This document shows, in pieces, positions 7,011 to 10,644 of a DNA stretch of 32,220 nucleotides. The notes under the pieces were generated by a model. The model worked only from the letters and a program-made list of their open reading frames with translations, was not told the DNA's origin and searched no databases. The number at the start of each line of letters is the position of its first letter. The stretch's first letter is position 1. The DNA comes from Cyanobacteria bacterium QS_8_64_29 (GTDB taxonomy: Bacteria > Cyanobacteriota > Cyanobacteriia > Cyanobacteriales > Rubidibacteraceae). A program made the position numbers and the translations under genes. The stretch is from positions 24,379-56,598 of the forward strand of contig PXQH01000014.1 in the NCBI GenBank assembly GCA_003022125.1, read 5' to 3'.

Positions 7011-8806
7011 TGCCAGTCTTGCCGCCAATTGCGTTGCCAGTCACCCGCTTGCGCTCGCTCGGACGCCGCGCGATCGCTGCCCTCGTAGCCCTGGGCGTTG
7101 CGATCGGGCTAGGCGGATGCAACCCGGCCATTTTGGACGGTCGCACCGGCGAGAGCCGGCAATTGGTCAAAGTCATCCTCAGCAACCCCAAAACCTTCAA
7201 CGCCATCCTGTCGAAGGAATCGCCCAATGTCTTTGGCTACACCTACCAAGGGTTGGTCGAAGAAAACCCCATTAAGGGCGAGATTGAGCCGGCGCTGGCC
7301 CAGTCTTGGCAAATCGCCGAGGGCGGGCAGCGCGTCACGTTTGTCCTGCGCGAGGGGCTGAAGTGGTCGGATGGCGAGTCCCTGACCGCGCGCGATGTTG
7401 CCTTTACCTTCAACGACCTCATTTTTAACGAGGCCATCCCTAACAATCTCAAGGACAGCTTCCGCATCGGCCCGGAGGGGCAGTTCCCGCAAGTACGTGC
7501 GCTCGATGAGCGCCGGATTGAATTTCGCTTGCCCGAGCCGTTTGCCCCGCTGCTGCGCAGCTTGGGCGTCCCCATCATGCCCGCTCACGCCCTGCGTGCC
7601 TCGGTGACCCAAACCGACGAGCAGGGCCGGCCGCAGTTTTTATCCAAATGGGGCATCGATACACCGCCGGGCGAGATTGTGGTCAACGGCCCCTACCAAC
7701 TGGCCCGCTACGCCACCAACGAGCGGGTTGTCTTCGAGCGCAACCCGCACTACTGGGAAACTGACGAGCAAGGCAACCCGCTGCCCCGCATCGAGCGCGT
7801 TGTTTGGGCGATTGTGGGCAACCAAAACACGCAGCTGCTGCGCTTTCGCGCTGGCGATCTGGATGCCATGGGGGTCTCGCCCGAGTTCTTTGCACTGCTC
7901 AAGCAACAAGCGGCCGAGAGCGACTACCGCATTTACAACGGCGGCCCTGACTACGGCACGCGCTTTATTTCGTTCAACCTCAACCAGGGCCGGCGCAACG
8001 GTGAACCGTTGATCGATCCGGTCAAATCGGCGTGGTTCAATACACTCAACTTTCGCAAGGCCGTGGCCTACGCCATCGACCGCCAGCAGCTAATAAACAC
8101 CGTCTACCGCGGCCTGGGGGCCAAGCAAAACTCGCCCATCTCGGTTCAGTCGCCCTACTACAACGACAGTGTCAAATCCTACGGTCACGCTCCCGACCGA
8201 GCTCGCACCCTGCTGCGCGAGGCGGGCTTCCAATATGACAGCGAGGGTAAATTGCGCGATGCCGAGGGCAACCGCGTCCGTTTTACGCTCATCACCAACG
8301 CCGGCAACAAAACCCGGGAAGCCATGGCTGCCCAGATCGAGCAAGATTTGGCCCAAATCGGCATGCGGGTTGACCTTAACCCCATCGAGTTCAACGTCCT
8401 GGTCAACAAGCTCAGCAATACCCTGGATTGGGAATGTCACTTGTTGGGCTTTACCGGCGGCAACGAGCCCAATGCCGGCGCCAGCATTTGGTTTACCGAC
8501 GGCCGCTTGCACTCGTTCAACCAAAAACCCCAAGCGGGGCAGCAACCGCTCCAGGGCCGCCAGGTTGCCGATTGGGAAAAGCAAATCGAGCGGCTCTACA
8601 TCCGCGCCGCCCAAACGCTGGATGAAGCCGAGCGCAAGGCGCTCTACGCGCGGGCGCAGCAGATCGTGCAGCAAAAGCTGCCCTACATTTATCTAGTCAA
8701 CCCGCTCGCGATGCACGCCGTGCGCGATCGCGTGCGCGGCATCGATTACTCAGCGCTGGGCGGGCCGTTTTGGAACCTCGAGTACCTGACCCTGAGCCCG
8801 GACTAG
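7010..8806 (+). CDS. ABC transporter substrate-binding lipoprotein, peptide/oligopeptide type (SBP family 5)
   Basis: This 598-residue extracytoplasmic solute-binding protein is of the DppA/OppA/NikA type. The chosen ATG at 7010 overlaps the previous stop and gives a basic N-terminus, a hydrophobic stretch (ALVALGVAIGL) and lipobox LGGC with Cys37 as the lipidation site. An upstream in-frame ATG at 6869 would lie inside the phosphatase gene and spoil the signal. Family features include VTFVLREGLKWSDGESLTARDVAF, NGPYQLARY, LNFRKAVAYAIDR and the C-terminal LPYIYLVNPLAMHAVRDRVRGI. The ligand is inferred as a peptide or similar compound. No ATPase gene adjoins it, but a permease of the matching class is encoded at 10961-12007 on the other strand. 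Transcription probably stops at the hairpin at 8826-8850. Confidence 0.92.
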   Translation: MPVLPPIALPVTRLRSLGRRAIAALVALGVAIGLGGCNPAILDGRTGESRQLVKVILSNPKTFNAILSKESPNVFGYTYQGLVEENPIKGEIEPALAQSWQIAEGGQRVTFVLREGLKWSDGESLTARDVAFTFNDLIFNEAIPNNLKDSFRIGPEGQFPQVRALDERRIEFRLPEPFAPLLRSLGVPIMPAHALRASVTQTDEQGRPQFLSKWGIDTPPGEIVVNGPYQLARYATNERVVFERNPHYWETDEQGNPLPRIERVVWAIVGNQNTQLLRFRAGDLDAMGVSPEFFALLKQQAAESDYRIYNGGPDYGTRFISFNLNQGRRNGEPLIDPVKSAWFNTLNFRKAVAYAIDRQQLINTVYRGLGAKQNSPISVQSPYYNDSVKSYGHAPDRARTLLREAGFQYDSEGKLRDAEGNRVRFTLITNAGNKTREAMAAQIEQDLAQIGMRVDLNPIEFNVLVNKLSNTLDWECHLLGFTGGNEPNAGASIWFTDGRLHSFNQKPQAGQQPLQGRQVADWEKQIERLYIRAAQTLDEAERKALYARAQQIVQQKLPYIYLVNPLAMHAVRDRVRGIDYSALGGPFWNLEYLTLSPD

Positions 8807-8825
8807 GGGGCTGGGGGCCTTGAAA

Positions 8826-8850
8826 AACCGTCCCCATTTAGGGGACGGTT
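8826..8850. terminator. Perfect hairpin terminator between convergent genes
   Basis: AACCGTCCCC (8826-8835), loop ATTTA, GGGGACGGTT (8841-8850): a perfect 10-bp stem. It lies between the stop of the + strand binding protein (8806) and the stop of the - strand acidic protein (8887). On each strand the stem ends in TT and there is an A-run on the left side, so it reads best as a bidirectional terminator, with the better T-tract on the - strand. Confidence 0.75.
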
Positions 8851-8886
8851 AAAGCAGCGATGGAGCGACTGGGCGAGGGAACGAGC

Positions 8887-9609
8887 TTAGTTGCTGAGCG
8901 GTGCTGCCTTGCCCTCTAGCTCCATTTGGGCGCCAGCATCGGCACCGGCTGCATCAGTCTCGGCTTCGGTTCCGGTGCTGGCTTCGCCTTCGGTCTCGAG
9001 CTGCAGCTCCGTCTCGCTGAGGTCCTGACTCTGCGTCTCGGTGCTTTGCTGGGCATCGGCTTCGCCATCCGCCTCAGCCTCAGACTCGCTGTCTTGCTCG
9101 GTTTCGCCTTCGGCTTCGGTATCGGCATCAGCGTCGCCCTCAGCCTTGGACTCGCCGGCAGCCTCAACTTCGGTCTCGGTTTCTGCCTCGGCATCGGCAC
9201 TGCCGTCGGTGCCGTCGGATTCGCCGTCCTTGTCTGAGTGATCCTTGTCTGAGTCGCACTCAGGCTCGGCAGGCATGCCGCCAGCCTCAGCGTCCATCTC
9301 GGTCTCAGCGTTCCCCTCCGATTGGATTTTGGCATCAGTGCCTGTAGCGTTGCCGTCGGCCTCAGCAGCTGCATCAGCATTCGAGTCGCCACTAACATCG
9401 AGCTCAGCTGCCGTGCCATTCTCCTGGGCACCAGCGCCGACACCAGCATCGACATTGGCACCGGCACCCAGTTGCGCTTCTAGGGCGAGTTGGCTGCCAC
9501 TAGCAGTGCGATTCCCAACTTCTAACTGCGCGAACGCCGCCGGCGCTAGCAGCGCCGTGCCGGCAGCTGCACCAAGGAGACCGGCAAATCGGATGAGATG
9601 GCGCGTCAT
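8887..9609 (-). CDS. Secreted, extremely acidic low-complexity protein
   Basis: This 240-residue protein belongs to no family I recognise. Residues 1-27 form a classic signal peptide (basic MTRHLIR, then GLLGAAAGTALLAPAAFA|Q). The mature part has about 61 Asp/Glu in some 213 residues against five Lys, one Arg and one His, so its pI is very low. Over long stretches an acidic residue occurs at every second position, alternating with Ala, Thr, Ser or Gly (for example EAETETEVEAAG, DADADTEAEGETEQ). There is one Cys and almost no aromatic residues. It is probably disordered and able to bind cations. It has a strong ribosome binding site (AAGGAG, nine bases before ATG) and lies 78 bases after the MTHFR-family gene on the same strand. 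The repetitive coding DNA could gain or lose units by slippage. Possible roles are salt adaptation, Ca/Mg binding, mineral interaction or cell surface charge; none is shown. Confidence 0.75.
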   Translation of the reverse strand: MTRHLIRFAGLLGAAAGTALLAPAAFAQLEVGNRTASGSQLALEAQLGAGANVDAGVGAGAQENGTAAELDVSGDSNADAAAEADGNATGTDAKIQSEGNAETEMDAEAGGMPAEPECDSDKDHSDKDGESDGTDGSADAEAETETEVEAAGESKAEGDADADTEAEGETEQDSESEAEADGEADAQQSTETQSQDLSETELQLETEGEASTGTEAETDAAGADAGAQMELEGKAAPLSN

Positions 9610-9610
9610 A

Positions 9611-9640
9611 GGGCGTCACTCCTTAATATCGGACGTCACT
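9611..9640 (-). promoter_or_regulatory. Two 10-base direct repeats 20 bp apart in the leader of the acidic protein gene
   Basis: On the - strand AGTGACGTCC (9640-9631) and AGTGACGCCC (9620-9611) are spaced by exactly 20 bases start to start, two helical turns. The second copy lies between the AAGGAG ribosome binding site and the ATG. The intervening bases include TATTAA. The phasing is what a dimeric or cooperative regulator would need. No regulator is assigned. Confidence 0.35.
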
Positions 9641-9687
9641 GCCCATGACCGCTGGCGAGCGAGTGAGTTCCGCGAACTTAGCGTTTG

Positions 9688-10644
9688 CTAGCCCAAACCG
9701 GAGTAGGAGGCCGCGGCTGGCGCCGCTGCAGGCGCCGCTCGGTCGACGGGCGCTACACCTGCTTGGTCGAGGATTTGGGGGATGAGGTGCTCTTTTCTAA
9801 CGGCCATCATGTGAACGCCGTGGCAGCGCTCGCGCGCCATTTGCACCTGCTCGGCAGCAATGGTGATGCCCTCATCGAGCGGATCGGTGGCGCGCTCCAG
9901 CCGCTGGACGATCTCCTCGGGGATGGTAACCCCGGGAACGCAGCGGTCGATGAAGCGGGCGTTTTTGGCCGATTTGAACAAAAAGATGCCTGCCAGCACG
10001 GGTTTTTCGCTCCCGGCAGCCACCTGGGTCATGAACTGCTCTAGGCGGTCAAAATCCGTCAGCATTTGGCTCTGGAAAAACTGGGCCCCAGCCTTGACCT
10101 TGCGTTCGAAGCGGCGCTTGAGGCCGGACCAGCTTTTGAGCTGCGGATCCACGGCAGCACCCGGAAACAGCGCCAAGCCGCCGTCGGGCAAGGCGTTGTC
10201 AGTGGGGTCGTAGCCACTGTTGAGCTGGCCGATCAGCTTGAGCAATCGCACCGACTCGAGCTCAAAGACGGCTTGGGCATCGTCGTTGTCGCCGGCACTG
10301 ACCGGATCGCCGGTTAGCGCCAGAACGTTGCGCAGCCCCAGCGCGTGCGCGCCCATCAAATCGGCTTGCAAGCCAATGCGGTTGCGATCGCGACACGCCA
10401 GCTGGCAAACGGGCTCGATGCCCTGCTGCTGCAGCAGGCTAGCCGCTGCCAGCGACGACATCCGCGCCACGGCACGGCTGCCATCGGTAATGTTGACCGC
10501 ATGCACGCGCCCTTGCAGCGCGCGCGCCATTGCCAGCATGTGGTCCGGGTTGCCCCCTTTGGGTGGCGACACCTCGGCCGTCACGAGAAACTCTTGGGCG
10601 CGGATGGCGCGGCGAAAGCAATCGCTCATATGGGGTGAATCCAT
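9688..10644 (-). CDS. metF: Methylenetetrahydrofolate reductase family protein
   Basis: This 318-residue protein is of the MTHFR TIM-barrel family, which reduces 5,10-methylenetetrahydrofolate to 5-methyltetrahydrofolate for methionine synthesis. Visible family segments are FLVTAEVSPPKGG, HAVNITDGSRAVARMSS, QLACRDRNRIGLQADLMGAHALG, NVLALTGDPV, and the barrel C-half with KAGAQFFQSQMLTDFDRLE and PVLAGIFLF. The protein resembles the form common in cyanobacteria. The flavin and folate sites cannot be checked residue by residue here. The listed ATG gives MDSPHMSDCF; the ATG five codons on is equally possible. An Ala/Pro tail (APVDRAAPAAAPAAASY) is a lineage oddity. The symbol rests on family resemblance, and some members are not the main MetF. 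Confidence 0.82.
   Translation of the reverse strand: MDSPHMSDCFRRAIRAQEFLVTAEVSPPKGGNPDHMLAMARALQGRVHAVNITDGSRAVARMSSLAAASLLQQQGIEPVCQLACRDRNRIGLQADLMGAHALGLRNVLALTGDPVSAGDNDDAQAVFELESVRLLKLIGQLNSGYDPTDNALPDGGLALFPGAAVDPQLKSWSGLKRRFERKVKAGAQFFQSQMLTDFDRLEQFMTQVAAGSEKPVLAGIFLFKSAKNARFIDRCVPGVTIPEEIVQRLERATDPLDEGITIAAEQVQMARERCHGVHMMAVRKEHLIPQILDQAGVAPVDRAAPAAAPAAASYSGLG

Follow-up and report, generated by a model that had tools for sequence, protein, structure and literature searches.

The serine-aspartate region of the Clf-Sdr (MSCRAMM) proteins of staphylococci is an exported, low-complexity sequence in which an acid alternates with a small residue, and the C-terminal sorting motif of these proteins is LPXTG. 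The acidic matrix proteins of mollusc shells are also secreted and contain acidic low-complexity stretches; Asp-Y repeats occur among them, and binding of mineral by carboxylates on one face has been proposed for such repeats. According to one report, fish otolith Starmaker and Starmaker-like proteins are secreted, very acidic, and disordered, a Starmaker-like protein is compacted by Ca2+ and alters CaCO3 crystals, and regular acidic spacing is suggested as a possible Ca2+ template (PMC4260845). Accripin11, according to another, is a Cys-rich protein with a pI of 6.7 and ends in a short Asp-rich tail (PMC9808598).

The window analyzed here (the whole stretch of 32,220 nucleotides) contains P0001, a gene for a putative exported protein that resembles these systems to different degrees. 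Like the staphylococcal region, it is of low complexity and alternates acids with small residues, but it mixes Asp and Glu with Ala, Gly, Ser, and Thr and lacks a long Ser-Asp dipeptide repeat. It shares secretion, high acidity, and disorder (for P0001, secretion and disorder are predictions) with Starmaker, an animal otolith protein, by description and with no implication of shared function; the shell matrix proteins are likened to it by description as well. Accripin11 differs from P0001 in that its acidic tail is short and its body Cys-rich. Our literature search brought up no paper that we recognized as dealing with P0001 or with a cyanobacterial protein of such design. P0001 looks like an orphan variant of acidic low-complexity exported proteins. 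We tentatively propose, as a reading that could well be wrong, that it is a real, lineage-specific gene for a Sec-exported, soluble, disordered polyanion that would bind Ca2+ and Mg2+ at the cell envelope.

The coordinates, strand, length, and residue counts given for 8887-9609 in the preliminary description of this DNA are correct (Table 1). In a genome sample that excluded the window, 1 of 157 crude ATG ORFs of at least 250 aa has AAGGAG near the place where P0001 has it, and 19 of the 157 have any Shine-Dalgarno-like word, with a background of about 8%. The hairpin after the stop codon also lies just beyond the end (8806) of a convergent gene, which may own it instead of P0001 or alongside it, and a simple pattern scan at P0001 found neither a promoter-like site nor a terminator. 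The codon usage of P0001 fits the habits of the genome more poorly than that of 94% of the genes of at least 200 aa (crude longest-ORF calls and not gene-finder output, as in all our codon, pI, Shine-Dalgarno, and run statistics). With its start site and the hairpin after the stop as support, we take P0001 to be a real gene, which is presumably expressed.

Table 1. Features at the P0001 locus, in window coordinates
Feature	Coordinates	Strand	Basis
P0001 gene, putative exported acidic protein, 240 aa	8887..9609	-	ATG-to-stop frame, signal peptide, 61 D/E per 213 mature residues
Shine-Dalgarno sequence AAGGAG, 9 nt upstream of the P0001 ATG	9619..9624	-	Perfect match
Terminator-like 10-bp hairpin, 36 nt past the P0001 stop, followed by T	8826..8850	-	-23.3 kcal/mol, z -5.1
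metF-like methylenetetrahydrofolate reductase gene, upstream neighbor of P0001, 78 nt apart	9688..10644	-	PF02219, 6.9e-60
Putative signal peptide, P0001 residues 1-27, supposed cleavage between AFA and Q (Gln28)	9529..9609	-	Read by eye
P0001 residues 28-97, Ala/Gly-rich, ordinary acid content (11/70), period-2 hydrophobic pattern	9319..9528	-	
P0001 residues 115-133, segment of Asp, Ser, and Lys that includes the sole Cys (118) and the sole His of the mature part (124)	9211..9267	-	
Alternating core, P0001 residues 137-185, 22/25 same-parity positions acidic	9055..9201	-	

The preliminary description called the product secreted and polyanionic. For secretion the agreement is at the level of the sequence, where an N-terminus with a basic n-region, a hydrophobic h-region, and an A-x-A motif, lacking a lipobox Cys and a twin Arg, looks by eye like a signal peptide. 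The mature part is polyanionic: its 61 acids (37 Glu and 24 Asp) among 213 residues face six basic ones (five Lys and one Arg), with one His, one Cys, and no aromatic residue, and the computed pI is 4.05 with a charge of about -55 at pH 7. Residues 98 to 240 hold 50 acids in 143 positions, and the hydrophobic pattern that precedes them has a lag-2 z of 3.8 over residues 28 to 100. The 24 residues interposed between the same-parity positions of the core are never acidic and comprise 22 small ones (Ala 11, Gly 4, Thr 4, Ser 3) plus one Val and one Gln; the acids of the core are mostly Glu. The limits of the core were set after inspection of the pattern.

The protein was also said to have an acid at every second residue, which is true of the core (137-185) and some shorter stretches but not of the whole chain, as the ordinary acid content of residues 28 to 97 shows; the parity of the acids shifts between stretches. 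Compared with its mature sequence shuffled 20,000 times, P0001 has no adjacent acid pairs (shuffle mean, 17.2) and 37 acids two apart (17.1; z, 6.7), and its longest strictly alternating acidic run of 15 was reached in 0 of the 20,000 shuffles (mean, 3.3). The next longest run in its own genome is 5, among 1,926 ORFs of at least 60 aa in 313 kb (16 stretches plus the window), and in 200-kb samples from two family members the longest runs are 11 (in one of 457 ORFs) and 5 (444 ORFs). The alternation in P0001 is unusual, yet it has parallels elsewhere. Runs of 9 to 28 occur in 4 of 11 weak look-alike loci in other cyanobacteria of the same order (28 in L013, 9 in L016, 26 in L018, and 10 in L019), and since these runs sit in frames that are mostly repeat-like and regular, simple repeats are able to make such patterns.

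The homology searches that the preliminary description had called for have been run, and P0001 looks like an orphan among the genomes searched, which held no congener. A comparison with 30 relatives gave a match in its own genome alone, with no homologue in the 8 other genomes of the family, and within its own genome P0001 matched itself alone at an E-value of ≤10. Among 291 genomes of the order, 10 others matched at 11 places with 17 to 26 bits, which we judged compositional; we rejected these places as homologues, as stops occur in 5 of the 11 and the frames there are unrelated. In 386 genomes of the phylum, a sample overlapping that of the order, P0001 found itself and one weak match already in the order set. 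The N-terminal 115 residues, searched against 282 genomes of the order, matched their own genome and none of the 281 others. Six exact peptide patterns, which detect close relatives only, retrieved no relative from genome_contigs and viral_contigs, and the plasmid and phage collections held no homologue. The PDB search returned three eL29 sequences with E-values of 0.08 or worse and no credible relative. At an E-value of ≤1, Pfam gave PARP as the sole family (0.035) and no adhesive domain; the procyclic acidic repetitive protein family (PF05887) was rejected at 14.5 bits against a gathering score of 100 bits. An orthologue beside metF in related cyanobacteria, also suggested as a check, did not turn up: 88 metF loci contained no counterpart, and none of the 1,342 ORFs in these neighborhoods had an alternating run of at least 6 or passed an acid-rich filter. 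These loci are the 8 of the family and the best 80 of 120 from genome_contigs, at most 85 of them distinct (L038-L040 seem to duplicate L003-L005), with flanks of up to 1.5 or 3 kb that are shorter at contig ends. Absence of the frame from close relatives, which the preliminary description had named as a refuting result, was observed in 8/8 other family genomes; this shows an orphan and is not a disproof of the gene, because the genomes searched included no other member of its genus.

P0001 is probably disordered. On a charge-hydropathy plot, whose two parameters make for weak evidence, the mature protein falls on the disordered side (net charge per residue, 0.258; hydropathy, 0.396), and the acidic part does so above all; residues 28 to 97 alone are borderline, falling just across the line among folded proteins. 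An AlphaFold model computed from the single sequence, a similarly weak guide, has a mean pLDDT of 46.9, a pTM of 0.13, and no assigned secondary structure. The proposal that the acids lie on one face would hold, by geometry, for an extended chain, and the model is of low confidence throughout. An EF-hand pattern of our own, GGxGxD, and D.D.DG had no match in P0001; among looser motifs, D.D.D occurs twice (once at residue 119) and D.DG once (126). We therefore rejected an EF-hand protein, for which there was also no EF-hand Pfam match, and, with no match to GGxGxD, whose repeats are the hallmark of RTX proteins, an RTX protein as well.

How could such a protein serve the cell? We hypothesize that, once the signal peptide is removed, the chain stays in the periplasm, the sheath, or the medium and works as a polyelectrolyte, whose evenly spaced and never adjacent carboxylates would bind Ca2+ and Mg2+ weakly but in large number and would also hold water. 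The outcome may be that divalent cations are buffered, or that the cell envelope and exopolymer are conditioned, in saline water. By analogy with the described acidic proteins, binding of divalent cations or mineral is plausible. In favor of the proposal we count the signal-like N-terminus, the charge, the start site, the hairpin, the alternation, the acidic pattern of the core with its mixed third bases, the predicted disorder, the Starmaker-like precedent, and the loop of alternating acids in a family membrane protein described below. We count against the proposal that there is no homologue with which to compare selection between species, that the codon fit is weak, and that neither a promoter-like site nor a full cation-binding motif was found. 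The better codon score of the antisense register, the borderline position of residues 28 to 97, the second possible owner of the hairpin, and a sampled proteome of ordinary acidity count against it as well. In addition, cation binding alone leaves the alternation unexplained, because clustered acids would serve too. The link to salt made in the preliminary description is circumstantial. A Halothece MAG is one of three identified members among the 8 other family genomes, and Halothece is a halophilic group of salty habitats. Proteins encoded in the genome sample are not acidic in general (median pI, 7.1 for 293 crude genes and 6.7 for the 163 of at least 250 aa), and these values do not support a salt-in proteome.

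An unlikely, though serious, alternative to such a cation-binding polyanion is a recently born or decaying gene, in which a region of hexanucleotide-type repeats happened to be open and exported and has little or no function. The orphan status of P0001, the period-6 autocorrelation of its DNA (0.478), its weak codon adaptation, and the repeat-like alternating runs elsewhere in the order are consistent with this origin. On the other hand, no hexamer array detected by Tandem Repeats Finder (TRF) exceeds 3.7 copies, and codons two apart share their third base in 19 of 49 cases, no excess over a synonymous-shuffle null of 0.342 (p, 0.23). The third bases at the 25 same-parity positions of the core are mixed (G 10, T 6, A 6, C 3), and 22 of the 25 are still acids; simulated neutral decay of a repeat, on the premise that it started uniform and with equal mixing of third bases, kept far fewer GA pairs than the core has. 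A young DNA repeat is therefore an unlikely source of the core, because its third bases are mixed and its acidic pattern is intact at 22 of 25 positions. The simplest reading is that the pattern of acids and small residues in the core would be maintained at the protein level. The good start site, the signal-like N-terminus, and the hairpin also speak against a gene without function.

It is quite unlikely that P0001 is a low-complexity stalk or spacer that, like the Ser-Asp repeats of staphylococcal Clf and Sdr proteins, holds its N-terminal part off the cell. The NCBIfam models for SdrC, ClfB, SdrD, and ClfA do match residues 69 to 219, but at 32 to 35 bits against curated cut-offs of 999 to 2500 bits, so that we rejected membership in the MSCRAMM Clf/Sdr proteins as a match by composition only. 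Moreover, the C-terminus reads EGKAAPLSN by eye with no LPXTG, Pfam detected no adhesive domain, and for the N-terminal 115 residues that would be held out, the search of 281 other genomes of the order gave no relative.

Still more doubtful is a role as a mineral template, with extended strands that expose all carboxylates on one face and bind or inhibit crystals of calcium carbonate (or gypsum or halite) at the cell surface. The complete lack of adjacent acids, the 15-fold run, and the small Ala, Gly, Ser, and Thr on the other parity would suit this role, as would the salty habitat of the Halothece family member. However, the genome has no known mineral context, Glu and Asp are mixed and the protein is not Asp-rich, the acid parity changes from stretch to stretch, and the AlphaFold model is too poor for strands and assigns none. 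We give little credence to a bolder version, in which the exported protein was selected for an exact two-residue spacing of carboxylates, would order itself on Ca2+ or mineral and nucleate or block crystals at the cell surface, has converged with the Asp-Y model of animal shells, and is one of several proteins of the family that keep alternating acids while the letters drift. That P0001 is not a protein gene at all, the frame being the shadow of another frame or a non-coding element, is hardly credible: long open frames are common on both strands at this GC and the codon-aligned antisense register scores higher than the P0001 frame (0.201 versus 0.025; gene mean, 0.246), but the frames antisense to it reach just 103, 66, and 148 aa and begin with TTG or GTG, the other frame on the minus strand (GTG start) also falls short of it with 183 aa, an Rfam scan of 8700-9800 at gathering thresholds had no match, and the start site, the signal-like N-terminus, and the hairpin all fit the frame of 240 aa.

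Alternating acids also occur in an unrelated predicted membrane protein found in this family of cyanobacteria (L139-L146; L120:9601-10248, minus strand), in a loop that follows the first hydrophobic segment. Homologues are present in 8 of 9 family genomes from three genera, including the genome that carries P0001, with none in G001; they have no Pfam match at an E-value of ≤0.01, and in L143 a frame on the same stretch is presumably flotillin-like. The first 85 residues of the 8 copies contain 13 to 19 acids, with 1 or 2 adjacent pairs and 7 to 13 pairs two apart. As in P0001, the acids alternate; between species the letters change and the pattern stays. Unlike P0001, which found no match to these proteins, the loop is a short part of a conserved membrane protein. 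Its presence in 8/8 copies with varying letters and length shows that stretches of alternating acids arise more than once in this family and can be preserved, which does not imply kinship with P0001.

Two other genes of the window deserve mention. A Ycf66 protein (PF07444; 27164-27769, minus strand) has a Ser/Ala/Glu/Pro-rich tail of 91 residues that is of low complexity and not alternating (longest run, 2). The C-terminal residues of an FAD-dependent oxidoreductase (PF01266; 23225-24208, minus strand) look out of frame by eye, pointing to a possible frameshift. At 2.2 Mb, the genome itself (G000; sampled GC, about 64%) is small next to the 2.8 to 4.8 Mb of the 8 other family genomes examined.

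In either case, P0001 is for now a single orphan gene. If the spacing of its acids is irrelevant, it would exemplify a young gene that grew out of low-complexity DNA and has an export signal. If the spacing counts as well as the charge, P0001 would be a compact natural polymer with which the effect of carboxylate spacing on the binding of cations or mineral could be probed by reordering its residues.
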